Shown here one piece after another: positions 3,768 through 56,474 of a DNA stretch of 64,000 nt. A model generated the notes under the pieces. The model did no database searches. It was not told the DNA's origin and saw only the letters and a list, made by a program, of their open reading frames with translations. Made by a program: the position numbers and the translations under genes. Each line of letters starts with the position of its first letter. Within the stretch, counting starts at the first letter, position 1. The DNA lies in contig NC_058494.1 of the NCBI RefSeq assembly GCF_020382885.2, positions 14,216,001 to 14,280,000 of the forward strand. The letters are read 5' to 3'. Origin of the DNA: Scatophagus argus. Its lineage: Eukaryota > Chordata > Actinopteri > Scatophagidae.

Positions 3768-6700
3768 ATGATGCAGACTTTGAAAGGCATCAGACACCTG
3801 CAGTCCAGCACAGTAAAACAAGCAGGTAAATATAAACGTTAGGAGAAGAGACAGGTGAAATGAAAAGTGATTACATCATTTGTAAAGTTCGTGAATAAGC
3901 AACACACTGTGCAAAAATAGTACGACATTTTATAATAGAGGGCTCATGATTTTCTTTTCAATAGTTTAAGTCATTTTTTAATGTAAAAATGCCAAACATC
4001 TGTTGGCTCCAGCTTCTCAAAAGGGAACAGTCTACTTTCTCTGTCTCATGTCAATGTAAATTAAAATATTTTGCAGTTTTGACATCTTGCTCAAGGTCCA
4101 ACAAATGTAATAAATTAACAATAGTCTCTAATAATTAAGAGATTAATTGACAGTGAGAATCATGAGAATCCAAAAATAATGTTTCTACTAAGTCCGCCTC
4201 AGTTTCCCACAGCTAAGTTGTCATGTTACTTATTTTCTCTCTCAAAATCATTCAGTTTTTTAAATCATGATAGCGTAAAAAAGCAGCAAATTCTCTGGTT
4301 GAAGAAGCTTCGATGTCTGTGTATTGATTAAATATTTAATCAGCTAATTGTTCCGGTACAAAACAAACATTTTCTCAGCAAATATTGGTCACAAAGTTAT
4401 TCTGGTTAAGAGTAGCTTTAGACACACAAAACCTGTTTTTTACTGAAAGAGAGCAGGTGCGTATTTCCCTTTATATTACCGAGTCTGACAAAGGGAGACG
4501 ATAGAGGAGGTTATAAGGCCTTGCATGAGTGTGATATGTGTCCAGTTTCAGAGCTCTCTGTGCCCGTCCCCTGGGGAGAGATCAGAGGTAAAGTGTGGGG
4601 TCCTGACCACGGTCATCCTGTGCTGTGTGTGCACGGCTGGGCTGACAACTGTGGTACATTCAACACCCTCATTCCCCTTCTACCCAAAGGTAATTGCTGT
4701 CTTGGTAAACTGGAGATCTCATGTAAACCTTAACACCCACTGATGGGGAGGCTGAACTGTCTTCACTTTCCCCTCCTCTGATTTTCTTGTACACATAGCA
4801 TACATCAACACGTTTGGCTACTCCTGCGGTCACTCACGCAGGCTTAGACTTTGTCTCAGGAATGTGTTTGTGTGTCCAGTGCAGTTGTTTCTTGCAGGTG
4901 CTGTAGCTTAGCTGTTTGAGCAGCTACCTCTCATGCAGAAAAGACAAGGGTGTGGATCTTCCTCTGGCCTGCATGCATATTGTTTGATAATGATATTACT
5001 AACACTGACATTTTAAAAGACACAGACATTACCATTGTTGTTGGTTGATTGCTGTATTTGGTTTTGTTTTGTTTTCCTTAGTCAGAATCAGATGTGCTTC
5101 AATATTTATTTCCTTAAAGACTTAGTATGGCAGTTTACTTGGTGACACTCAGTCCATCTGTCTGTCCTTCCTCTCAGAGTGCAGATATGTGGCGGTGGAC
5201 CTGGCAGGTCATGGTCTGTCATCACATCGTCCACCTGGCGTTTTCTACTCCTTTCCTTCATATGTGATGGATGTTCGCAGAGTCATTGACGGTGTGTGAG
5301 TTGTAATTAGAAGCTTAAAATTATTTTGTTATTAAACTTTTTCCTTTTACACATTTGAAGTGTTGTGCCTCTCAAGGCCCGGTTACTGGCTCTTTTCTGA
5401 AGCTATCAAACAGTACTGTACAGTTTTACCACAAACACCAGGCACCAGCTGAGCTGTCTCCATGACAACCAATAAAATTCCACCCTCTGGACAAGACTGC
5501 TGTTCCTGTTTGTCATTTTAAGTGAAGATTTTTTCAGTCCCAAAAAAAAACAACAAATAACTGAAAACTGAATAATATATAGTATTGTATTGTAAAATTA
5601 TGATGAGTAATATATTTTGACGCTCTAGTGCATATAGACTGTCGTTAAAAGATAGCAGCGATGTTGTCGTTTAAGCTAAAACAGTCTCCATGTCTGGGAT
5701 GAGATACTGAACCTGGTTGATGATCTGTGAAATTAACTCCCACAGCTCTGCAGTGGAATAAATTCTCCATCATAGGTCACAGTATGGGTGAGTGCAGCTT
5801 AACAGCAGAATTAGAGCAACTTGAAATATTTGTGATGTATGTGTAATATTTATGTGTGCATTTTCTTGCTGTTTTATTTCAGGTGGTAACATTGCTGGGC
5901 TGGTAGGTGACAGTGTCAGGACAGGCTGTTTCACCTTGTTGCTATCACACACACACACACACGCTGACTCTGTACAGACTGTCTAGATATGCTGTGTGTC
6001 ATTTGTTGTCCATGCTGTGTTTTCCACAGTTCAGCGCACTGTATCCTGAGATGGTGGATGCTGTCGTACTGCTGGACTCTTATGGATTCCTACCCACAGA
6101 TCTGGTACTTAAACAGAGTACTGTTACTACAGGGTTGTAATTTGTTGTTCATATTGATACATTTTAGTTACTTTGGATTTTCCCTCTTTTGCTCCAGAGG
6201 TAATCATTTATCTTTCAAGCAATGCTTTAAATTGCAGCATGACATTGAACATAGAACTACCAACCAGAAAAATGTCTCTTGGCAAACCTAAATGAGGGTT
6301 GACCCAGATGCCAGACAGTCTTCTTTTAGATGGCTAGAATTAGTTTTGCTGCTGTCATGGTTCTCAACAATACATTTTTTTCTTAGCTTCCTGGACTGGC
6401 ACTCTTGCTGCTTCTCTGAAGTATCCATTCATTCATTGCACTAAACTGACACGACGTGACCTTGAATTCCCAGCATTACACCTACCAAGTGTGAAGTAGA
6501 TCGGATCAGAACTGCTCCTGAGATATTTGGTAGACAGACAGATTCCTTGCATAATAGATTATTTCCTTACTCCGCTTTTGTCCATAGTTTTGAGTTTGCC
6601 TCCTCCTCATCATCTGTGTCTGTTTTCTTGCAGAAAGAAGTGCCTAAAGTGATGAGGCAGGGGTTTGATGGGATGCTTCAGTTTGAAAAAAAGTCAGAAG

Positions 6701-8258
6701 AGATGAAGACAAAAGTTTACACTTATGAAAACGCAGTAGAGAGGTGTGACACCTTCCTATTTATGGTGTTTAAAAGCTACTCAACTTTCACTTCATCGAG
6801 TAATATTGCACGTACAACTGTTGTCTAACAAGGCCTTTTATTTCGTCCAGGCTGCTAGCTGCAAACCCGACTCTGTCTGAGCAGTCTGTGCGCGTCCTTT
6901 TAGAGCGAGGTCTCATCAAAGTTGATGGAGGTACAGCTTTACCGTCCTCCTCCCTGATCATATGTTTAATATAGATGCTCTGCAGAGGAAAAATAAGTTC
7001 ACTCTCTGAATAATCTCACTTTGTTTTTACTCTTATACCCAAAGTGTGATATATTTTTCCCTTACAGGAGTAGTGTTCTCCCGAGATTTTCGTATTAATC
7101 TGGTAAGTCAGTGCTGAATGGCAACTCTTCACTTTGCCTTTTTTATTTATCCCAAAGGTGTCTTATGTAGCTCATAAAATACATATGCAGTATGTTTTAT
7201 TCTATGTTTTCAGAAAAACATAGTGCGCATCAGTTTGGAGCAGAGTCTGGAGATGCAGTCGAGGATACAAGCCTCTATTCTAGTTGTTTTGTAAGATATT
7301 CATCCACCTCACATTTCTATTTTACATGCACAGTGCAAGCAGATTTTATTCCATGCTAAACATACACAAAATCCTTCTGTTTGTCTTTCCAGAGCTGAAG
7401 ATGGCTTTGAGAAAATATTTGCTGAACAAGATCAAAGGAAATTTGTATCAGCACTTCTCCAGGCCTACAGGGACAGAAATGTGAGTGTATTTTTGCAGTT
7501 GTGGTTGTGTAAAGCAGGTACACGAGCATCTTGGTGCTTATTTTTAGCCATTAAGTCTGTGTGTGTAATTGTGCCTTGTAGACAGACAGTGCCACAGATG
7601 CAAAATTAGCAGAGTAGAACAAGCTGAAAGTCTCAGAGGCAGCACAATTATTATAGCTGTGACCCTCGACACTGACCTACATGCAGCAACTCGGTCAAGT
7701 GCTGCTGATGGGAGGGAAACCAGAGGACCATCTCCAGTGATGGTCTCTTTCTAATTATCTTTTAATTGTTGTCCATGGGCTTCTGTAAATCTCACTAACC
7801 TTCTTATTATAAAGTAACCCTGATCCTTGTCTCAAACATTGTAGCAGTTGGACCTGGTAAGGCCTTGAAAAGACCTTGAATTAGAAGGTCTTTAAGAAGG
7901 TATGGGAACTCTGCAGCTGTTGCCTACACTGCCACAACCAAATGGCAGACAGACACAGTTGGTGGCGAGCTGAGAACCATGGTGGAGAATTTAACAGTAT
8001 TCACCTCATCATGTTAAACCAGTCAAGTTCACAACTTGTTATTGCCACCGCCAAGTGGCCAAAAAGAATTAGTGCAGGTAAAAATGTTCCACTTGTCTCT
8101 TCCAGCACATGGTGGTGACTGTCCCCGGCGATCATCACATCCATCTGAATAATGCTGCAGTCGTTGCTCCACTTGTGTCTGACTTCCTGCAGACCAAAGT
8201 GCTGTCACAGTCAGCCAAACCACCAGGTGAACAGAGTTCAGAGTTTTCAAAGTTATAA
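3768..8258 (+). CDS. serhl: Serine hydrolase-like protein, copy A (12 exons)
   Basis: Putative alpha/beta-hydrolase of the SERHL/SERHL2 family; the substrate of the family is unknown. Exons by splice sites and phase: 3768-3825, 4546-4689, 5178-5291, 5746-5787, 5883-5902, 6030-6104, 6634-6743, 6851-6930, 7068-7102, 7214-7290, 7393-7480, 8106-8258, giving 331 residues. The oxyanion loop LCVHGWADN is near residues 46-54, the nucleophile elbow GHSMGG has Ser118, and the catalytic His is probably His291 in VPGDHHIHL. VSELSVPVPWG closely matches the start of human SERHL as I remember it. The N-terminal leader is basic (MMQTLKGIRH) and the last residues are EFSKL, a canonical C-terminal peroxisomal signal. 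No frameshift or stop is seen. The start is chosen because its exon gives the right phase and has A at -3. Confidence 0.88.
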
Positions 8259-11657: not shown

Positions 11658-12060
11658 TACACTATATAGACAAAAGTATCCTGACATATTTCTTTATGGG
11701 GTTGTTTTTCAGGGCTTGGGCTTGGCCACTTACCTCCAGTGAAGGGAAATCTTAATGCCTCAGCCCACCGAGACATTTTGGACAATTTTATGCTTCCACT
11801 TTGTGGCAACAGTTTCTTTTCTATCCCTTTCTATGACTGTGCCTTAATGCCCAAAGTAAGGTCCATAAAGACATGGTTGGATGCGTTTGGTAGGAAGAAC
11901 TTGACTGGCCCGCACTGTGTGGGCCCATCCAACACCTTTGGGATGAACTGCAACGAAGATTGTGGGCCAGACCTTTTGGTCCAGCATCAGTGTCAGACCT
12001 CACAGATGCTCTACTGCATGAAAGGGGAAAAATTCCCACACAAGAGAGAGCAAGCTTAAA
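11658..12060 (+). mobile_element. Tc1-like DNA transposon remnant, copy 1
   Basis: It begins with a terminal-repeat-like tacactatatagacaaaag and continues with a decayed Tc1-type transposase. Recognisable blocks are VKGNLNASAHRDILD, a YDCAL block where the family has HDCAP, then KVRSIKTWLD. Frameshifts scramble the D-P-N-P-I-E part. The right terminal repeat is missing. The same element type recurs at 46.9, 54.4 and 56.1 kb. Confidence 0.8.
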
Positions 12061-17144: not shown

Positions 17145-20100
17145 ATGTCATCTACAATGATACAAACAGGTAGTTTGCTTCCAGTAAATATCTGTCAGAT
17201 CTGTGTTTCTGTGTTGCTTTCTGAGGTTGTGACATGTGTCCAGTTTCAGAGCTCTCAGTGCCCATCGCATGGGGAGAAATCAGAGGTAAAGTGTGGGGTC
17301 CTGATCACGGTCATCCTGTGTTGTGCCTGCACGGCTGGGCTGACAACTGTGGTACATTCAACACCCTCATTCCCCTTCTACCCAAAGGTAAACTTTGACA
17401 AAAGGTATTTAAACAGCATTTTAAGGAGGGGGGCATTGGCAAAATCAAACTGTGTCTCAGATCCACACTACATATTGATTCTAAGCACATTTGCTTAGGT
17501 ACAAACTAGAAAAGTGAAAATAAAGAACACTCAAAACAGACAGCATGTAAATACTGTTTGATTTTGCTGGCTAGCTAACATCTTCTCCTACAGGCTGATC
17601 TTGAGTTCTCTCCAATGTGGATTTTTCATCCCTCTTTGTCCTCCCTGTCAGAGTGCAGATACGTGATGGTGGATCTGGCTGGTCACGGCTTGTCCTCCCA
17701 TCGTCCTCCTGGAGTTTTCTACTCTTTTTTTGCATATGTGGCAGATGTACGCAGAGTGGTTGACGGTGTGTAAGTTCAAGAGGTTGTAGGACCTCTTTTA
17801 GTTTCCCTCAGATCTCTTCAGGGCTCTGATGTCTCTCTGTGAATCAGAGCTGTTACAGTAAACTACAGCTGTAAGTGAAACTGGGTTTAATTCCTGCAGG
17901 TCTCCAATGGACAAAATTCTCCATCATAGGCCACAGTATGGGTGAGTCCAACACCATGCAAACAATGCAAAAATATAAATAATACACCTGATTCACTACT
18001 GACACTGTGCTTTTTTTACATCTTCTACCATAAAGCTGCAAAGCTGATTGACAAGTCTAGAGAAAGTCAATCAACAATTAATCACTTATGGTTCCAACTT
18101 CTCAAATAGTTTGGTGGAGACTTTTTTTTTATTATTTATTTATTTTTTTGTATTTTTTATTGTTGCAAATTAAAAGCCTTTGTGTTTAGGACCACTGGTA
18201 AGACTAAATAAGGAATGAGAAGATGCTACCTTGAGTATTTCTCACTTTTGTTTTAGACATTAATTTTTCAAAAAAAAAAATCAACAAATTAATGAGTGAT
18301 GAAAATATGTGTTAGTGTTAGGTACAGCCTTACAACCAATGTTGGAATCTCAATGAAAGAAAGTCAATAACAAAAAGATTTTGGACAAGAGCTTTGAGCA
18401 CAATCATTTGTTCATTCTCCTACAGGTGGTAACATCGCTGCAATGGTAACTAAGATTCATCACATGCAATTTTTCACTGTTTTTACACAAAATACAGACA
18501 CTATCTTTATTATCTTGTATGGTATCATGTTTATCATATTGTGGTTTTCACAGTTCAGTGCACTGTATCCTGAGATGGTGGATGCCATCATACTTCTGGA
18601 CACTTTTGGATTTTTACCCACAGATCCAGTAGGCTACTTCTCTGGTTTTAATTATCATTACACTTTGTATGCAGCCTTTAAAAAGAAAGATAATACTGTC
18701 AATGTCTTTTGCAAATATTATCACATTATTCCTCAGTTATCTTAATGTTCCACTGCCGTCAATAGTTTTTGACCTTCTCACCTCTTTGTTTCTTTTCCTG
18801 CAGAAAGAAATATCCAAAGTGATGAGGCAGGGGATGGATGAGATGCTTCAGTATGAGAAAAAGATGGAAGAGAAGAAGAGAGTTTACACTTATGAGAAGG
18901 CGGTTGAGAGGTATTACATCACTCCAGTTCAAGTTACATAAACCATCATTCATGTTGGATGTTTTGAAGTAAGTTTAAAGGGTGATCTCCACTGACTTCA
19001 CACATCAAAGTCTGTTTACTGGTGTTGGGTAGTATTATTCAAAGTTGTACAAAACCTTTTTCTGATCAGTTGCTTCAAGTCATGTCATTTAAGTCAGTAT
19101 TGGTTGTGTCTGAAGACTGAAAATGAAAAGAAAAAAAATTAGCTGGCATTGTGGGTTTCCAAAAAAATAAAAAGCTCACCAGACCTCTGTAGCCCACTCC
19201 TCATCTCTGCTTGAGGCTACATTAGCTGCTACTAGCATTTGAAATTCCTGCTGAACTTGCAACAGTGAAGTTTCACTGTGGGTCATATAGACAATAGGTT
19301 TTGTCAAGGAAGAAGAATGTTTGGAATAAAAAAGACATGCTTCATCTTCAGTGATGCTTTTTTATTTTTTTAAACTGTTCATGATGGATCTGGCATGTTA
19401 TATGAGTGTGATGCTAAATCTCTGAGTGTATCTGTGAGTACTTAACACGATACAATAAATCACAATTGTTTTATTTCTTCCAGGCTGTTGGCTGCAAACC
19501 CGACTCTGTCTGAACAGTCTGTGCACATCCTATTAGAGAGAGGTCTAGTTCAAGTTGACGGAGGTGCATCTTTATCTTTTATTCTCCTCTCAGAGAGAAA
19601 TATTCTCACTTTGCTTCCTCTCATCTGCCGGCAGCTGAATGTTTTTCTCTTCTGCAGGATTTGTGTTCTCCAGAGACCTGCGACTTAACTTTGTAGGTCT
19701 TCTTTAACCTGCCAAACCTCCCTCCCCCTACATTCACCACCTCCTCTGTTAACTTATATTTTTTTCCACTGGAGGTTTAGCATTCAGTTCATAAAGCAAA
19801 TGTGTTTTATTTTATGTTTTCAGAAAAACATAGTGCGCATCAGTTTGGAGCAGAGTCTGGAGATGCAGTCGAGGATTCAAGCTTCTGTTCTAGTTGTTCT
19901 GTAAGATATTAATCTCTACACTGAAACTGATATTTTATTCATAATTTTAGAACTTACTATACTTTTAACATATGAACATGTAAATCCTATGTCCCCATGT
20001 GCCTAATGTATGAACTATTTAATGTGTGCTAATCATCATAAATTGTCAAAGCACATCATACTAAAATGTGTTTTCAGAGCGGACAAAGGCTTTGGTGCAA

Positions 20101-25330: not shown

Positions 25331-27501
25331 ATGAGTGTTTTTCACCGTCCGGCAGCTCTGATCCCTAAAGTATCTGCATCCGCTGGAACAGAGGAACATC
25401 CATCAGCTTGTTTGTCACCTTCTTGCTCCCTCTCTTCGCCTGTCATCAAAAAGAAACCCATTCATATCCCATCATTTGATGAGAAGGGACACACTTATGA
25501 AAAACGCAACAAAAAACAGATGATCGCTTACAGGTAAATTGAGATGGAGCTTGATTTCTGTCTTAGTTTTATGTGCTATGTAATGTGATGCGTACTGTAT
25601 TCATTTTGCAGTTTACACTTTATTTTCTTCTCTCGTTTAGTGCCAGATCTTTTGTTCCATTTTCTGCCTCCAAGACATCAAGTCAGCCCTCTTGGGGCAA
25701 ATCATGTCAGCAGTCACAGCACAACCATGGAGAAAGAGCTTCAACTCTCCCAAGAACCAAACCAAAAACATACAGCTCTCCAACTCTCTCTGCAAAGCCC
25801 AGCATCTCCATTTTTCCAGCTCCAAAGCCAAATTCCTCTCCCACTCTCTCCTCTCTGAAACCAAAGCCAAGTGATTCTCTTCATCTCCCCGCCTCACAAT
25901 TGAGTGATGCTTCTCCATTACTACACCAGCGTCAGCCTCAGCCAAGTATATCTCCAACTCTGACCATCCCAACACTCAGACTGAGTCCGTCTCCAACTTC
26001 TCTTTGCCGAGGAGTGAGTTTGGACAGCCCGGGAGGCAAGCAGCCATCTCCTGTTGCGAAAGAACGACGTGCTAAATCGATTACCATCTCGAATAATAAA
26101 GTTGAACCTGAGCCCAGCCAACAGAAGTCTTCAAATGAGACAAAGCGTGACTTTCTTGACCAAAAAGCTTTAATTGACTTCACACATCCGACACTGAGAA
26201 GAGTCTGTCCCATGACGTGCACAGAGTTTCAACATCAGATACACTCCGAGTCCCAGAGACAGGCAGCCACATCTCAGCAGTCCTGCTTAATGCAAGAAAA
26301 AGTTGGTTTTAGTACAAAAGAAAATGCAAAGGATAAACCAAAACCTCTGCCCAGGAATGTAGACATTACTGCAATTCCTAAACCAAAAGCAAACATCAAA
26401 CAGCAGCAGGAATTTCTGCCAAGTGGAGCAGGTACACGAACATCTTTTTCAGAGTCTGAAGGGATTAAGTTTGCTAATGTTGTTCAGAGGGAGTCTCAGC
26501 CAGTGTCTGATGGTCTGGCTACTCAGTCGAGCCTCAGCCTTCACAGGAAACGTATGGACTATGCTCAGTTTTTACCAATTACACCGCAAATGTCATTTTT
26601 CAGAGAGCCTCCATTGAATCAGTTGATTGTTTCACCGAATATTGAGACCAGAAGAAGACAATTTGGCTTCAACAGTGAAACAAAAGCAGAAACAATGCTT
26701 CTACCAGGCTCTAAACTCACAAGACCTCAGGGAGAAAACAATGTAAAGGCAATTGCAGGAACTTCAGCGAAATTCTTTGAACAAAGTGTATCTCAAAACA
26801 TCAAGTCTCCTCAGAAACACAGATTCTGGTTGAGCGCTCCAAGGCAAATCACCCAGATGGATGTGAGCAGTGCAGTAAGTCAGTCCGACTGTGTTTCCAA
26901 GGACAGTTGCTGTTCGAGAAACACTGATGGCAGAATAGCGGGTGCTCAATGCGAACACAGATTAAATCAACTGCCACCTCTCAGAGAGGAGGCCTCCCGA
27001 CCTGCTGCTCTTGAGTGCACCACATCCAAAACCACCTTTTCAAAATCAGATATTATATCACACAGACCTCAGTTGGATTCCAAACAGCATCCAGAGCAAA
27101 ATAAAAACCACAATGGGGTGAATCTCAGTGACACAGGACTGTATCAAACAGGTATTTTTGCACCATCTGACCGTCATGGGGTGCCCACAAAGCTACCAGA
27201 ATATCCCTCAGAGAAATGCGTTGTAAGCTGGCCACCGTCTATGGCGCTCTGCCCGTTCAACACAAACAGTTCTGGCATCAGTTCAAAGGGGCTCTTTGAC
27301 CTGTCGTCCCAGCAACAGCACAGTAAGCACCAGAGACCAGACGAGACAACAACAACAGCGGCTTCTCTTCAACTACACCAACCAGATTACTCTGCAGCAG
27401 ACAGAGCACTTATCAAGGAGGAACCAGAGGACCCCTATTACGTCACCATGTACTACCCAGGCTCAGTGTATGTGGGTGAGTACAAGCTTTACAGGGTTTA
27501 A
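25331..27501 (+). CDS. Unidentified Ser/Pro-rich protein, 687 residues, two coding exons
   Basis: Exon 1 25331-25533 follows a clean acceptor (ttttcag|GATG); exon 2 is 25641-27501; phases agree (2). I do not recognise the protein. The first 70 residues hold a block that looks conserved: PIHIPSFDEKGHTYEKRNKK, then QMIAY and SARSFVPF. The middle, about 550 residues, is Ser/Pro/Gln/Lys-rich, without hydrophobic segments or Cys/His clusters, and probably disordered. The C-terminus changes character: a sumoylation consensus IKEE at residues 659-662, then an aromatic stretch DPYYVTMYYPGSVYVG. An acidic, aromatic end after a disordered body suggests a nuclear adaptor or coactivator, but that is a guess. 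A strong donor-like G|gtgagt at 27475/27476 lies nine codons before the stop, so the annotated end may be an intron read-through. Confidence 0.75.
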
Positions 27502-30791: not shown

Positions 30792-30793
30792 AC

Positions 30794-33700
30794 ATGTCAG
30801 ACATAGTTCCTCCAGAAGTGAGACCCAAACCGGCTGTCCCTGTCAAGCCTCCAAATGTAGGGGCTCCTTCCCCGTCCACCCCCTTCCCAGTCCAGGGCCC
30901 GGGCATCGGAGGAGGGGGAGGGGGTGGCGTCTCAGCTCATCCTCCAAGTGCCATCCCAGTACCCATCGGGGGCCACGGCCCAGTGCACATTAGCAGCCAT
31001 AGCGTGGGTCATGGGGTGGGCCACGCCACAGGCCATGGTGCAGGACACACTGCAGCACACAATGGAGGTCATGGTGGCTCCCACAGTTCCAGTGGTGGAT
31101 CAACTCTGCTGGGATACATTGGTATTGACACCATCATTGAGCAGATGAGGAAGAAGACCATGAAGACGGGTTTTGACTTTAATATCATGGTTGTTGGTAA
31201 GTCACAGAAGCCTGTGGATGAAGTGAAAGATGAATACTAGAAGAGGCAACGCCATGGGAAATATCTTCACATATTATGAATTTATTTTTAATCTCTCTGT
31301 CTCGGAAAGAATGCAAAGCGATCTAAATGATTTCATACGTGGACGCTTTCTGTTTCTGTCGTTCCGTAATTTTCACAGCCTGTTTTGTCATGTTTCTCTT
31401 TTCTCAGGTCACAGTGGTCTCGGTAAGTCAACTCTGGTGAACACCCTTTTCAAGTCCCAGGTGAGCAGGAGGAGTGCAGGGTGGGCGCGTGATGAGAAGA
31501 TCCCCAAAACCGTAGAGGTCAAAGCAGTGTCTCATGGTGAGTACAAGGAGACAGCTACTGTCCTTTCACTAGTGCCACACATTTATAGTAGCACATAATT
31601 TGACTTTGGGTATTAATGATCTTTGACCATGTTCTTAAAAGTCCCACTTACATTATATTGGTGCATCCTGGTGAGCTTGCCATTTATTCTCATCCTGATG
31701 AGCTTGCCATTTATTCTCGTTGAGCTACAACTGCATGAGCCAACGTCTGCCTCTGCTGCAGGCTTTGATCCCTTGTTTACTTTGGCTGCAATTACTGTTA
31801 TAGCTGGTTGTGCCCTCAAAATCACTGCTAAAATAAATTGCTGTGTAATAATTATACTGTATGTCATATGAAAGACCTACCTGACTTGTGTCTATACTGG
31901 GTTGTTAGCTCTACAGAAAAGGTAGGAAAAAGGTTACGTATTTGTCTCTGTTTGCAAAATATCTAAAAATTAGTACATAGATCAGAAATTTACCAGACAG
32001 ATTACTGACAGATGACGTATTAGTTTCAAAATTCAATAACTAAATTTTGGTCACAATCTGGGTGTAAGACTCCTTCTGGGACACAGTTTTCTGATGCAGT
32101 GTCAGTGTGCCAGTGCAAAGTTTAGCGTGTCCATTGTTAAAAGATTTCAGTCAGGACAGGAAATCACATCAAATAGAAAGGGTCAAGGCAGGGTGGCAAA
32201 CAAGCTTGCAGGAAACAAGAAGGCTGTACCACTAAAGGTGTGGTCACATTACCTTTCAGTTAAAAGAAAATTTTCCACACTTCGCCCTGAGACAGGATGT
32301 GATTTCACGTTTCTGATGTGATTAGTAAACATTGATTGGAGCGTTCACAGACTGTAAACGGACTGTATGAGACTGTATGAGAGTTACCACAGTTTGTAGT
32401 TCTGTAGCGTGATAATGTGCTTCATCTACACACTCTAGAATAACAACACTTCCAAACACAGGGCATCAGTTTTTCTAGCAGAATTGGAAGCATGTTAGTT
32501 CATCTGTCTGATGAACAGGAGGAATGATTACACATATATTTAATGCTCATATGAGTTCCTGATTAATATGTCAAGACAGACTTGAAAACGTGCACCGATC
32601 CTTTAAGGGCTGCTTGTTGCCTTGACACATACTTTGTGTATTTGAAACTTGTAATCAGTAGCGACTATTACGTATATACTGTGTAATACCCCCATGTGTT
32701 ATATAACATGTACTGGTAAGTGAGCATGTGAAATGTTTATCTGAGCTATATAATGATTTTTTAAGAGTTTTGGAGTTCCGTTATGAAAAACATGACCATC
32801 TGATCTATAACTAAACCATGACAAATGGTTTTTAGTCCACAGGGCCCACAGATTCCCACTAGATCACTGACAGCTTCAATGTTCTTGACTGTGAGGATCT
32901 TCACAGGGAAGAGATAGTTTCTGCCCATGGACAGACTTGTTGATCTTCAGCCCAGATAATAATGTATTTGTTTACACATATATAAGTATTGTAGGTGCAT
33001 CAGAACTTCTATTGTGTTTAGCCTGATACAAGTCAGACAGTTGCAAAAGTCTGCCACAAATAACGGCGGACAATCTCAGAACTGAGAGCTACGTTTCCAC
33101 GGTAACTGTGAATTACCTGCTGACGACTGACACGAAGAAGTAAACATAGCTCAATTTGTGGTTTGCTAACAATGTTGTTGAGCGAGGACAGAATTGTTGT
33201 TTACCTCATAAAACATCCATGTAATTGTGATATTCTTCCACATTACAAATGTTATCTGCTGGAATAAACAGAGCTGAGCAGCAAACCACTTTTGCTTGAA
33301 AAGAGTCGTAATTTAGCTAGAATACGGAACAAATGACTCCTGTTTGAAGCCACACTGTGCAGCATTTGAAAATATTTGCCTTCGACACCCTTCTCTCAGC
33401 ATTAGCATCAAATCAGTTATAGTGGCAGACCAGTTTGTGAAATTACTCAGGGACTTTTCAGTATGTAACATGCAGTACTGTGCTCATAATGGCATCCGGG
33501 ACTGGAAAAGTGACTGAACTTCCGTCCATGATGATTTTACAGCTCCAGGGAAACGAGTGATATGTCAAATTCTGGGATGGAGCTCAGCTGTTTGGTTTCT
33601 GCAGTTCACAAGATGATCCACACATTGCCTGCGGTTGACAGTGACCTGACATTATTATGCTCTTCCCAGTGAGAGACACAGCAGACGTGTGGGATCACAT

Positions 33701-35928
33701 CACACAGATGTTAAAAATACTGTATCTCAATCTCATACATTATATACAGATCAGTTGTATGCCCACATGTAAAGCAACAGATATGATTTGGTCTTTTCTT
33801 TGTATGTGTGTTTGTAGTCCTTGAGGAGGGTGGTGTGAAGATGAAGCTGACAGTTATCGACACTCCAGGCTTTGGAGACCAAATCAATAACGACAACTGG
33901 TGGGCTTTCCAACTCCTGGATGATTAAACCTACAATGTCATCATTACTGCCTTGTCTTTACAAAGAACCAAGACGTTTTAAGTTTTAAGTCACTGTATAA
34001 TAAAAATAATAATAATAATAAGTATTTTTATTATTATTATAATAAGTATATTTAAAATGCTCCTACACAAGTAAAGTGTTCTTTTTCCTCCCCTTCTCTT
34101 TTCTCGCACAAGTAATCCTTTTTTTCTCAAGCTGACATCTCCTGCTGTATCCACAGCTGGGAGCCCATTTGCAAGTACATCAATGAGCAGTATGAGAAGT
34201 TCCTAAAGGAGGAGGTCAACATCACCAGGAAGAAGCGCATCCCTGACACCAGGGTGCACTGCTGTCTCTATTTCATCTCCCCAACAGGGCACTCGTGAGT
34301 ACCACTTTATCAGAGATGGAGATTAGGAAAGTAATCACTAAGCCATCTTTAAGTATCTAATCTAAATAGGGATGTGTGTTTAGTAATTTGGTGGCAAAGG
34401 CACTTTTACACACATACTCACTCAATGTTCATGTCCCTTCATCCAACAATATTTCTTTTCAGATTATTAAAACCGTAAGTTTGCTATTTTACATTACAGA
34501 TGACACATACCTCTCTCTCTCTCTCTCTCTCCTCTGAACACCTCGCAATTAGCTCTTGCTGACAACTGTGAAATTATTCTGTAATGGATAAATGGATACA
34601 GTCTTTTGTGTATTACAGCCAGTGTATCGCATCCTTCTTAGCCGGGGTAATTGAGACAGACAGGATGTTTTGTGCGCAGGCAAACAACAACTGGGACACA
34701 ACCTTTGTGCAACGATAAGCCCACTTTTCAGCAGCATTCACACTGTACGTCTTTTGTAATTGCTACAAGACATGAGAAAGGTCGTTTGGCAAACAAAACA
34801 TGACCAAAAAAAACAACATGCGCCTCCTTCTGTTGTTTGTCACCCTGACTGTTTTTTCACTGTTGCATACAAACCTTCTAGAAGAATCATGAATATTTAC
34901 CTATTTTTTCACATTCCTTGTCTGTTTTTTCTGTTCACTGTCTGTCCCAGCCTCCGGCAGCTGGATGTCGAGTTCATGAAGCGTTTGAGTCACTCTGTCA
35001 ACATTATCCCTGTCATTGCAAAGGCAGACACTATGACCATTGAGGAGAGACAGGAGTTCAAACAACGGGTGAGTTTCACCAGTGATCCCACTTAAAGCTA
35101 CAACTGATCAATCAGCCAGACCTCTGTAGCAGCAAAGGTGTCTGCGTATGGTCAGGTCTGTACTGAATCTAATGTCACGTCTGTACTGACATTTCTTGAC
35201 AATTGCAGACAATTATTCAATGACACAATGACACTTATAGATATTAGACATCTTAGTACAGAAATGCTGTACACAGATATGCTTGAGGTAATGTAGAAGC
35301 AGTGTTCAGAGAACTGGCAAGTTTATTTTTCAACTTCAAAATTTCTCATCACTCAGCTGTTTACTTGTGAAAGAGCTCTAAAAACATCACCTTGCACCTT
35401 GTTATTCGGTGAACATAGTGCAGCATTTAACCAGCTAAGGAACAGATATTTCCCACAGGAGTTGGTGGTGACCAAATCGGTGATAAAAGAGAGTGACTAC
35501 TTTATCCATCAGGTGGCCAGAAACACACATCACAAATAAATGGTAATGTTGCCTCCTGTTTGTTGGATGTGTAAATAAGCAGCTGTTTGCTAACAGCATC
35601 ACCATATGTATTTTATAAGGTGATGCCCCCAGGGGCCCAGGGTTAAAAAAGAGATTGAGTTGAACGGGCCCTAACCTCTCCAGACTGCTGGTTACTCAAG
35701 TGATTTGTAGAGAAAACTCAGATATGTATCGTTTCCTGGCTTTGTTTTATGCTTTAGGTAAGGAAGGAGCTGGAGATGGGCGGGATTGAGTTTTATCCAC
35801 AGAAAGAGTTTGATGAGGACATGGAAGACAAGAGTGACAATGACAAGATCAGAGTAAGCGTTTCTTTCTTTTCTTTCACACAAATTTGTCCTATGATTTT
35901 CTCATTTCCCACACCTCCTTTCAACCCT

Positions 35929-35962
<34 letters not shown>

Positions 35963-38272
35963 AGCGCTGCTTCCTTCAAACAGAATGTCAGGGCACTTGG
36001 GCATGTTGTGCATTTGTTTCATCTCATAAACCTTGTGCAGCTCTCTCTGGTACACTGAACCAAGTTGAAAAGTCTCTGTTCATAGGAGGCGATGCCCTTT
36101 GCTGTGGTGGGCAGTGACAAAGAATATCAAGTGAATGGCAAACGAGTTCTGGGGAGGAAGACACCATGGGGAATTGTAGAAGGTGGGTGCTATGGCCTTT
36201 CTTAATAATTAACATTTGCAGTCCCTTTGCATTCACATTGACATTTGTTTCTGTCCAATTTTTTTTTTGTTACAGTTGAAAATCCCAACCATTGTGAGTT
36301 TGCCCAGCTGAGAGATTTCCTGATCAGGTAAAAAAATAAACTTTCTAACCTGTTTAATAAACTGTCTTTACAATAGATTATGAAATGCTCATTGAGAATG
36401 CAATAAACTTAACTTAAGGAGTAATTAAATTTCTCTGTCATAGTGTTTTAACAATAACATGAATTGGGTGTAAAAATAGAAAGGGCTGCAGTTAATGATC
36501 TGCCAATTATGTTCTCAATTTATTGAATAAAATGTCAGAAAATACTGAAAAATTGCTGTTACCCAAATTGAATTCTTCCAATTGAAGCTATTCACTTTAC
36601 TATCACATAAGGCAAAGAAAAACAAAATTTACATTTGAGAGGCTGAAACTGTGATTGTTTACTTGAAGTACACCTCCAGTCAAAACATGTTTTTCTTCTA
36701 CATTTGATTGTTTGAGCTTCATTGAGTGGATTGATGTATGTGCAGAGTCCAACACTATAAGGCTGTTTTCACATTCATTGCTTAAAGTTTATGCAGTAAA
36801 GAGTTCACTGAAACTCAGATTTTAAGAGGCGGAGCCTACAACCATGATTGTTGACATCACAAATAGTTTTTGAGCCAATCCTGGTCCAATTCAGCTTCAG
36901 CAGGTGTGATGTGGAAACTTTAAGCCCACAGTGTACATGCACTGTGTATGGACTTTACAGTGAAGTAGAAGACAGCTTGGCCACTTCTACCAGCTCACCC
37001 AGGGGGACACCAAGGCATTCCCAGGCTAGATGAGAGATATAAGCCCTCCATCCTGACCTCAAGACCTCAAGATACTTACACTCCTCCACTTGGGGCAGCA
37101 ACTCTCCTCTGACCCGGAGTGGGCAATCCACCCTTTTCTGGCTTAGAATCATGGCCTCAGATTTAGAGGTGCTGATCTTCATCCCAGCCGCTTCACACTC
37201 GGGTGCAAACCGTCTCAGTGCGAACTGGAGATCACTGCTCGATGATGCCAAGAGGACCACATCATCTGCTAAAAGCAGAGATGGAATCCTAAGGTCTCCC
37301 TCCACCCTCCCCCACTTGGCTTTGCCTAGAAATTCTGTCCATAAAGATTATGAACAGAACCCGGTGACAAAGGGCAACCCTGACGGAGTCCAACCTTACC
37401 TGGAAACGAGTTTCACTTGTTGCTGGCAATGCGAATCAAGCTCTCACTCTGGCAATACAGAGACTGGATGGTCTGTAACAATGGACCAACCACACCATTT
37501 TCCTGGAGAACCCCGCACAGGATGCACTGAGGGACTTGGTCGTAAGCCTTTTCAAAGTCCACAAAACACATGTGGACTGGTTGGGCAAACTCCCACAACC
37601 CCTTCAGCACACTTGAGAGGCTGTAGAGCTGATCCAGTGTTCCACGACCCGAACAAAAACCGCATTGTTTCTCTTGGATCTGAGTTTCAATGGACTCTCC
37701 TTTCCAGCACCCTAGCATAGACTTTCCCAAGGAGGCTGAGGAGTGTGATCCCTCTATAGTTGGAACACACCCTAAAAAGGTAGACCACCACCCCAGTTTG
37801 TCACTCAAGGGCACTGTCCCCAATGACCACGCAATGTTGCACAGGCGTGTTAGCCATGACAGCCCCTCAACATCCAGAGCCTTGAGGTACTTAGGACAGA
37901 TCTCATCCAATCCAGTGCACCGCCACTGCGGAGTTGTTTAACTGCCTCAGCAACATCCGCCCCAGTGATGGAAGAGCTAAGAAGAGCCTCCGGGCTGGGT
38001 AGACTTGTCCTTGGTTTTGTCTCACCCTTCCCCTCACTCATATGTATGTCAAAAACAAAATAACACTGACACCTGTCTGTTTCATATTCATTATGTACTG
38101 CATATAACTAGTAATCATTATTTTGGTATCTCTCTTTCTCAGGTCTCACCTCCAGGATTTGAAGGAGGTCACTCATAACATTCACTATGAAACTTATCGT
38201 GCCAAGAGACTGAACGAAAATGGAGGTCTGCATCCCATATGCTCCAATGACACGCAAGAAAGCAACCTGTAG
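30794..38272 (+). CDS. septin3: Septin-3 (GTP-binding cytoskeletal protein)
   Basis: Septins are GTPases that polymerise into membrane-linked filaments; septin-3 is the neuronal member of the SEPT3/9/12 group. Coding exons: 30794-31196, 31408-31536, 33818-33899, 34157-34294, 34951-35068, 35758-35853, 36086-36182, 36276-36327, 38143-38272, giving 414 residues with all phases consistent. Visible parts: a polybasic stretch RKKTMK before the domain, P-loop GHSGLGKST (135-143), G3 DTPGFGD (192-198), G4 AKAD (274-277), and the septin unique element including [12 protein letters not shown]. The [19 protein letters not shown] start resembles human septin-3. It ends [16 protein letters not shown] with no coiled coil, as expected for this group. 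Odd points are a long Gly/His-rich N-terminal insert with histidine at every fourth residue from 61 to 97, and His136 where human has Gln in the P-loop. Confidence 0.96.
30974..31093 (+). repeat. 12-bp in-frame repeat encoding ten His-x-x-x tetrapeptides
   Basis: Ten consecutive 12-base units each begin with CAC or CAT, placing His at residues 61, 65, 69, 73, 77, 81, 85, 89, 93 and 97 of septin-3. The other positions are mostly Gly, Ala, Ser and Val. Units differ from each other by many bases, so the array is not a fresh slippage product. It sits between the Pro/Gly-rich N-terminus and the [11 protein letters not shown] segment before the GTPase domain. Confidence 0.95.
31665..31718. repeat. 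27-bp tandem duplication
   Basis: Two adjacent copies of a 27-base unit beginning atcctg and ending tattctc, differing at one base (ggtgagc versus gatgagc), in septin-3 intron 3. Confidence 0.9.
31719..33817 (+). other. Septin-3 intron, no other gene
   Basis: Rest of the long intron between coding exons 2 and 3 (31537-33817). I see no extra exon. A third X-box-like sequence GTTTCCACGGTAAC lies at 33093-33106, with a perfect right half only. Confidence 0.5.
36957..38041 (-). mobile_element. Rex3 (RTE-type LINE) reverse transcriptase fragment, antisense in septin-3 intron
   Basis: Minus-strand frames give, in order, [55 protein letters not shown] (motif A Asp), [11 protein letters not shown] and [18 protein letters not shown] (motif C, ADD). 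The two sites used by the standard Rex3 PCR primers are recognisable at 37362-37382 and 37784-37803 with few mismatches, which supports the family. Several frameshifts and stops split the frame, so the copy is dead. It occupies about 60% of the last septin-3 intron, opposite to the gene. Confidence 0.9.
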
Positions 38273-44194: not shown

Positions 44195-44382
44195 GTGAGA
44201 TGGACAGGGGATGGTGACATGTATAGGACTGCTCTGGGGGAGTGAGATGGACAGGGGATGGTGACATGTATAGGACTGCTCTGGGGGAGTGAGATGGACA
44301 GGGGATGGTGACATGTATAGGACTGCTCTGGGGGAGTGAGATGGACAGGGGATGGTGACATGTATAGGACTGCTCTGGGGGA
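44195..44382. repeat. 47-bp minisatellite, four perfect units
   Basis: A 47-base unit beginning gtgagatggacaggggatgg and ending tgctctggggga is repeated four times with no visible difference. Because 47 is not a multiple of three, the array stays open in more than one minus-strand frame, producing artefactual open frames. Confidence 0.97.
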
Positions 44383-44439
44383 GTGCCTCAAGAATTGTGC
44401 CAAAGATATTGAAGCCTGATGCTGTGGTGGAGTTGGTAA

Positions 44440-46770: not shown

Positions 46771-46878
46771 ATACACTACTTTTAAAATCTGAAGATCCGG
46801 TCCTCCCGCAGTCAGTTTATAAACCTACTGCAGATTATGTCAGAGATACTGTACACCTTATAAATGGTCAAACTCAAT

Positions 46879-47389
46879 GTACACTGTATGGACAAAAGGA
46901 ATGGTTGTGCTAGTCCCCTTACTTCCAGTGAAGGGAAATCTTAATGCTTCAGCATACCAAGGCATTTGGACAATGCTATGCTTCCAACTTTGTGGCAACA
47001 GTTTGGGGAAGGTTCTTTTCTATCCCAGCATGACTGTGTCCCATGCAGTGCACAAAGCAAGGTCCATAAAGACATGGTTGGATGGGTTTGGTGTGGAAGA
47101 AGTTGACTGGCCCACACAGAACCCTGACCTCAACTCCATCCAACACCTTTGGGATGAATTGGACTGGAGATTGCAGGCCAGGCCTTTTCTTTAAACACCA
47201 GTGCCTGACCTTCAGTGCATGGATGGGAAAAATTCTGACATAAACACTCCAAAATCTTGTGGAAAGCCTTCCCAGAAAAGTGAAAGCTGTTATAACTGCA
47301 AAGCTGGCTGTGTATTTAGAATGCAATGTCATTAAAGTCCCTGTTGGTGTAATGGTCAGGTGTCCCAATACTATTGTCTATATAATGTA
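46879..47389 (+). mobile_element. Tc1-like DNA transposon remnant, copy 2 (both ends present)
   Basis: Terminal repeats are visible: tacactgtatggacaaaagg at the left and attgtctatataatgta at the right. The inside encodes a decayed Tc1-type transposase with VKGNLNASAYQGI, ARSIKTWLDGFGVEEVDWP, and TQNPDLNSIQHLWDELDWRL, where the family has SPDLNPIEHLWDELE. The change of the family Glu to Gln at this DDE position and the frame breaks indicate a non-autonomous, inactive copy of about 510 bp. Confidence 0.85.
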
Positions 47390-56129: not shown

Positions 56130-56474
56130 TTGCACACAGCATCTTTTTTCAGAGGGAGGGGAGTGTTTGATGGGGTTTGGGTCAGGGCTCTGTTCAGGCT
56201 TGTCAGATTCTTTCGTACTGGACTCATCTGGCCTTGTCTTGGTGGACCTTGCTTTGTGCGCTGGGGCGCAGTCGTGCTGGGGTGGAGGGTTGCCTTCCCT
56301 GGACTGTTGCCATGGGATTGGAGGCATGACATTGTTCAAAATGCCTTGGTATGCTGAAGCATTAAGACTTCCCTTAGCCATAAGTAGTCCAACTCCTGAT
56401 ATGAACTCCTGAATATCACACCCGGATTCAATGATTTAGAGATGTGTCCAGATACTTTTGTCTCTATAGTGTAC
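56130..56474 (-). mobile_element. Tc1-like DNA transposon remnant, copy 4, minus strand
   Basis: Read on the minus strand it begins tacactatagagacaaaagt and encodes GSLNASAYQGILNNV, then QHDCAPAHKARSTKTRPDES and EQSPDPNPIKH, a decayed Tc1 transposase. The left part is truncated. The family Glu of the PNPIEH block is Lys here. Confidence 0.8.

Follow-up and report, generated by a model that had tools for sequence, protein, structure and literature searches.

A ten-unit histidine array in exact register before the alpha0 helix of septin-3 in the fish Scatophagus argus

Septin-3 is a filament protein of nerve cells, and its gene lies on the forward strand of the window, by which we mean the whole stretch of 64,000 nucleotides analysed here, taken from the genome of Scatophagus argus (570.7 Mb in 48 contigs). 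Nine exons joined with GT-AG ends (Table 1) give a frame of 414 residues that runs intact to its stop. Residues 126-398 of the joined product match the Pfam Septin family (PF00735, E 5.3e-117), and the best match among solved structures is human septin-3 (4z54, 577.5 bits, E 1.4e-172, residues 110-395), with a higher score than the best septin-9 match (457.2 bits) or septin-12 match (404.4 bits). The sequence-only reading had named the gene septin-3, and the intact frame, the domain and the structural match all sustain that name. Where the exons ending at 35853 and starting at 36086 meet, the joined product is one residue short of 4z54, so that this junction may have been placed one codon away from the true splice. 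By its length alone the protein is without a C-terminal coiled coil, as the frame ends 19 residues past RAKRL.

Table 1. Features of the septin-3 locus, in positions of the window
Feature	Position	Strand	Basis
Exon with ATG 30794 of the MSD... frame; acceptor cag/AC, donor TTG/gtaagt (31197)	30792..31196	+	continuous frame, start to alpha0
Insert relative to human septin-3, about residues 22-103; rich in Gly, Pro, Ser and His, no D, E, K, R, Y or C	30857..31102	+	length difference, assumed human N-terminus
His49 codon, in the four-residue register of the array, three steps upstream	30938..30940	+	translation
Ten-unit His tetrad array H-x-x-x, residues 61-100	30974..31093	+	translation of exon
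Region of alpha0 helix with polybasic PB1-like stretch	31121..31165	+	identity to 4z54; limits our own
Exon with P-loop GHSGLGKS	31408..31536	+	exon joining
Exon with DTPGFGD	33818..33899	+	exon joining
Exon	34157..34294	+	exon joining
Exon with AKAD	34951..35068	+	exon joining
Exon; 3' junction may be one codon off	35758..35853	+	exon joining, 4z54 alignment
Exon	36086..36182	+	exon joining
Exon	36276..36327	+	exon joining
Last coding exon and stop; end computed from the 414-residue frame	38143..38272	+	exon joining

Translation from the ATG at 30794 places His at residues 61, 65, 69, 73, 77, 81, 85, 89, 93 and 97, that is, at ten of ten positions of the register. The codons run from 30974 to 31084 at a spacing of exactly 12 bp; six are CAC and four CAT, and their first and second positions are invariant. 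A ten-of-ten, codon-phased array had been claimed from the bare sequence, and translation confirms both its coordinates and its register. The 30 residues between the His are Gly (11), Ser (7), Ala (4), Val (3), Thr (2), and Ile, Pro and Asn (one each). The pattern holds up, and it gives a hint of having been preserved at the level of the protein; any role for it is putative. A further His, at residue 49, is possibly the remnant of a once longer array, and the register positions between it and the array, 53 and 57, are not His.

How does the fish protein compare with its human counterpart? The start of human septin-3, as we assume it to read, resembles the MS..VP..RPKPAVP.KP start of the fish protein when the two are aligned, and the exact ends of the insert depend on that assumed N-terminus. 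Human septin-3 (PDB 4z54, 3sop, 6uqq) shares the GTPase core and a similar N-terminal start with the fish protein, but its N-terminus is without the insert. Before GIDTII there are 42 residues in human and 109 in Scatophagus argus septin-3, and the fish Trp160 and Trp206 equal human Trp93 and Trp139 plus 67 residues. Since the alignment to 4z54 is gapless from residue 110 past Trp206, the 67 extra residues lie ahead of residue 110; from there to residue 134 the fish protein is identical to chain A of that human structure. Excerpts of PMC9356936 discuss W93, W139 and W284 of human septin-3 (one listing prints W193 for W139), and the Trp positions of our assumed human sequence agree with those published there. 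From the comparison of sequences, then, the N-domain insert is present in this fish and absent in human, and in the fish it is presumably disordered. The sequence-only reading had held that mammalian septin-3 is without the array, which is so for human, where a protein 67 residues shorter has no room for it. It had also put the array just before the GTPase domain, and the array does adjoin the alpha0 helix on its upstream side, with the Septin domain beginning at residue 126.

Is the array part of the main protein? The segment might be spliced out, or translation might start downstream of it, and to that extent it is of interest that an upstream coding exon matching MSKGLPETRTDAA, which we take to be upstream coding sequence of human septin-3, was not found among the eight candidates that passed a narrow donor filter. 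One of the eight, with a KGL string, was judged unconvincing. The array exon, however, has consensus splice ends, its acceptor scoring well in a simple matrix whose weights we assumed, and a single frame connects the conserved MSD..RPKPAVP start with alpha0. Four in-frame internal introns of this exon pass a crude, loose filter. One of these (30818-30895) would keep the array, and those from 30818, 30857 and 31016 all end at 31144, inside alpha0, at an acceptor that scores poorly with the same assumed weights; the one from 31016 would take out part of the array only. Because the introns that remove the array cut into alpha0 at a poor acceptor, skipping of the array alone looks unlikely, to judge from the DNA, and the phasing of the His codons itself argues for translation. 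We consider it very unlikely that the array lies outside the main protein.

Does the array have relatives? A 32-residue alpha0 query finds four places in the genome, septin-3 and three other genes of the SEPT3 group, to which we give our own labels, septin-12-like for L010 and septin-9-like for L011 and L012. The alpha0 exons are alike, those of the paralogues sharing an FNIMVV or LNIMVV end followed by a GT donor, but the frame before alpha0 in the paralogues is short or rich in Glu and Lys: within the same exon it reads MSESAKPQQPTPQGKGEKSHNSDFSYVGIDA in L011 and MSEAVVDTMLPPAVGGLYGEKAGGPVVDFSYVGIDA in L012, and L010 has a Glu/Lys-rich stretch. In the alpha0 exon, to which this comparison applies, a His array is missing from all three. 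The array peptide, searched against its own genome, matches itself, the single candidate past a loose first look that leaves others possible. The exon protein gave 32 pattern matches in viral contigs and 594 in prokaryote contigs, none upheld by tblastn, in searches able to reach close relatives only. Pfam offers no family for the exon product or for the array alone up to E 10, and tRNA and Rfam scans of the window give nothing. Among solved structures the 134-residue exon product finds septins and, apart from them, a weak resemblance of its residues 63-115 to ribosomal protein L15 (E 0.029), which was taken as a chance match of low-complexity sequence.

A His array in a septin is apparently unreported, in that we have seen no report of one in the open-access literature. 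Among the matches listed, titles and the starts of abstracts mention neither a His array nor a metal site in a septin, and of the matches listed for histidine none carries the phrase "every fourth residue". Peptide strings of the septin-3 N-terminus have no match among the open-access papers searched, and the accessible portion of a paper on zebrafish sept3 (PMC5313478) has none of the terms "histidine", "N-terminal" and "N-terminus".

Could so regular a spacing be an accident of composition? When the 81-residue insert (residues 23-103) was shuffled 200,000 times, no His run at any one spacing between 2 and 6 exceeded eight, a length reached once, against the ten observed; within the shuffled composition of the insert, a chance origin of the run is excluded. 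At the level of DNA, six CAY at 12-bp spacing are matched five times on the two strands of the window, always inside the array, and never in 100 dinucleotide shuffles of the window. Beyond the His codons the picture changes. Compared pair by pair, the units have a mean identity of 0.375 over their nine x bases, and shuffled codons give 0.353 (p=0.137); the similarity of the x bases of adjacent units has p=0.107 when the 30 x codons are shuffled, and the stretch is absent from the output of Tandem Repeats Finder. Between units, the first two positions of the His codon have an identity of 1.0 and the third has one of 0.467; at the x codons it is 0.407 at first and second positions and 0.311 at the third. 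A tandem repeat of the slippage type would have units alike beyond the His, and these units are not, so that the codon-phased 12-bp repeat of the sequence-only reading stands for the His codons and fails outside them. We set aside a constraint on the nucleic acid, as the third positions of the His codons vary between C and T, and an origin from a CA microsatellite, as the array cannot be read as CA repeats, in contrast to the locus L022.

What would be expected if the ten His had been kept without selection? We used a neutral star model with the base composition of the insert and with divergence matched to the observed identity of 0.375. With kappa 2, the probability of retaining ten of ten His is 1.8e-7 at a branch of 0.7 (expected identity 0.387) and 1.3e-9 at a branch of 1.0 (expected identity 0.327); with kappa 4, the corresponding values are 5.9e-7 (0.413) and 7.2e-9 (0.353). 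A branch of 0.1 raises the probability to 0.08-0.09, but the expected identity is then 0.83, contrary to observation. The model ignores nested duplication and presumes a common descent of the units that is invisible outside the His codon, and the argument for constraint comes from one sequence, chosen as an extreme. If the units share one ancestor, neutral keeping of ten His has a probability below 1e-6, and this hints at constraint at the protein level. It had been claimed that the His were kept while the rest changed; within this one sequence the codon positions and the star model agree, with the proviso that the x positions do not drift freely, since they are confined to small residues. Selection on the spacing, which had also been suggested, may instead be selection for His amid Gly and Ser, and the metal binding, pH-dependent assembly and condensate-type contacts put forward in the sequence-only reading are conjectural.

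What might the array do? No Asp, Glu, Lys or Arg occurs in residues 19-111 (about 93 residues), and the 134-residue exon product has no Cys and a sole Tyr, Tyr108. With no other charges and no Cys, the 11 His are the only side chains there that titrate near neutral pH. By simple arithmetic with an assumed pKa of 6.3, their mean charge would be +0.8 at pH 7.4, +2.6 at 6.8, +4.3 at 6.5 and +7.3 at 6.0. The alpha0 region, which includes RKKTMK, begins 13 residues past His97. In the parts of PMC8640212 drawn on here, the septin N-domain, which precedes alpha0, is described as mostly unstructured and as more variable than any other part of the protein; subunits of the SEPT3 group meet one another at the octamer centre, and closure of the SEPT3-SEPT3 interface displaces alpha0, which is proposed to free PB1 for membranes.

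The reading that we put forward, tentatively, is that of an ancient 12-bp coding repeat that has diverged save at the His and has left a soft, titratable and metal-competent patch. The insert probably arose long ago from such a repeat, whose units would since have diverged everywhere but at the histidines. The 11 His would determine the charge of the region, which would be close to neutral at the resting pH of the cytosol and more positive on acidification, and the imidazoles of the array could offer ligands for Zn2+ or Cu2+. The patch would sit directly before alpha0/PB1, a helix that may be buried in the SEPT3-SEPT3 interface or released from it and that, once released, could bind membrane, and two copies of the array would meet at the octamer centre. 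With the patch next to alpha0/PB1 and two copies of it expected at the octamer centre, its protonation, or its binding of metal, would be predicted to shift the membrane state, the interface state or the bundling of septin-3. Of all this, the sequence itself shows the array, the gene, the lack of other charges and a His that never varies among the ten units; the disorder, the descent from a repeat, the selection, the response to pH or metal and the effect on alpha0 are inferred. We count for this patch the exact His register, the invariant first and second positions of the His codons, and the star model. Against it, the pH of the cytosol rarely drops by much, and Zn and Cu are very scarce there in free form. 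The content of Gly and Ser argues against an alpha-helical metal site with i,i+4 His, and we therefore rejected a helical His-metal staple. One can imagine a stronger form, a proton- or metal-gated switch in which ten-His combs at the SEPT3-SEPT3 interface hold or release alpha0/PB1 in some fishes, so that presynaptic septin assembly would respond to activity-dependent acidification or zinc, but this we think unlikely.

Two other His-rich systems invite comparison, the prion protein, which is a cell-surface protein, and the His-rich proteins of squid beak, which are extracellular material proteins. Presynaptic zinc is plausible, and was counted for a metal site proper, where Cu2+ or Zn2+ would bind H-G-G-like units in the manner of the prion octarepeat and cross-link septin-3 subunits. 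The array units include HGVG, HGAG, HNGG and HGGS, which resemble the HGGG-type unit of the prion protein, but the low levels of free Cu and Zn in the cytosol weigh against such a site, as does the lack of any match of the array peptide to a solved structure up to E 10. The octarepeat, PHGGGWGQ (PMC2663819, in excerpt), likewise places its His at regular intervals along a flexible, Gly-rich N-terminal domain, and is reported to bind both Cu(II) and Zn(II) when the pH is neutral and Cu(II) alone under acid conditions (PMC10249355, in excerpt); septin-3, for its part, is described as a presynaptic protein (excerpts of PMC9356936). The octarepeat, however, has a period of eight with Trp, Pro and Gln, whereas the septin-3 array has a period of four and no Trp, so that at most it works like an octarepeat. 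Open-access literature on septin, SEPT3 and Zn2+, in its titles and abstract starts, has no metal site in a septin, and a metal site proper seems to us rather improbable. The squid beak proteins have disordered, modular His repeats that undergo pH-dependent phase separation, with Tyr contacts stabilising the droplets (PMC6884462, in excerpt). They have Tyr partners where the septin-3 array has none: no Tyr occurs in residues 1-107, and the array is without an aromatic residue of any kind. Might the array, in the manner of homopolymeric His tracts, serve as a localisation signal, or else offer a patch to which polyanions such as polyphosphate, phosphoinositides or nucleic acid bind? Binding of polyphosphate by His-tagged proteins is reported over the range pH 5.5-7.5 (PMC11094774, in excerpt), and human His repeats of at least six His target nuclear speckles, flexible spacing being tolerated with no fixed spacing code (PMC2644819, in excerpt). 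The known cases, however, are consecutive or dense tracts, and a spacing of four dilutes the charge; moreover, the description of septin-3 in PMC9356936, as excerpted, is presynaptic and not nuclear. A patch or signal of this kind we regard as quite improbable.

On present evidence a null reading is about as likely as the functional one: a largely neutral, low-complexity insert, that is, a slippage-expanded coding repeat in a tolerant disordered region that needs no specific function, possible if far from assured. The His would have persisted through turnover of units or through mild constraint against charged or bulky residues. The variable, mostly unstructured nature of septin N-domains (PMC8640212, in excerpt) fits such an insert, and beyond the array the insert is of ordinary low complexity, with a run of seven Gly and a richness in Pro and Ser. 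One would think, though, that recent slippage should give similar units, and none such are seen here; retention of ten of ten His at the observed divergence, below 1e-6 in the star model, also stands against neutrality. How common are CAY arrays in this genome? As background we took 200 kb, read on both strands and made up of a fixed stretch of 10 kb from each of contigs C1-C20; at 0.035% of the genome and unselected for coding sequence, this is a weak background. It contains 37 rows with at least five CAY at spacings of 6, 9, 12, 15 or 18 bp, eight of them at 12 bp; six of the eight are one CA microsatellite, and the other two are further five-unit arrays, both on the minus strand of their loci, one HPSI-like (L021 8480) and the other HSLT-like (L025 2483). 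That two such arrays occur elsewhere in the genome favours the neutral insert, and that no non-microsatellite 12-bp run in the 200 kb exceeds five units does not. The L025 array, in DNA of unshown coding status, reads HSIT HSLI HSLT HLIA HSLT, with His kept and neighbours varied, so that the picking of His runs can itself give part of the look of preservation.

What follows from either outcome? If fishes have kept the His register in common, septin-3 would be a cytoskeletal GTPase with a titratable or metal-binding comb beside a membrane helix, and such a comb would offer a means by which pH or metal could act on the assembly of septins in nerve endings. If they have not, the array is a clean example of a striking amino-acid pattern arising in a tolerant disordered region.

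The window holds other features. Open frames at 4422-4730, 6466-6825, 18398-18742 and 18633-18938 (plus strand) resemble exons of what we take to be a serine-hydrolase-like gene; 4422-4730 and 18398-18742 have no Pfam family. By eye, a similar exon occurs in 6466-6825 and 18633-18938, which suggests a local duplication upstream of septin-3. A 644-codon open frame at 25567-27498 (plus strand), Pro/Ser-rich in its first part, likewise has no Pfam family. Open frames at 36958-37937 (minus strand), antisense in the last septin-3 intron, resemble what may be a fragment of a non-LTR reverse transcriptase, and those at 11685-12056 (plus), 46823-47191 (plus) and 56130-56435 (minus) resemble what we take to be remnants of Tc1-type transposases. 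At 44195-44385 a 47-bp unit is repeated 4.1 times with 100% matches, and is probably a recent minisatellite.
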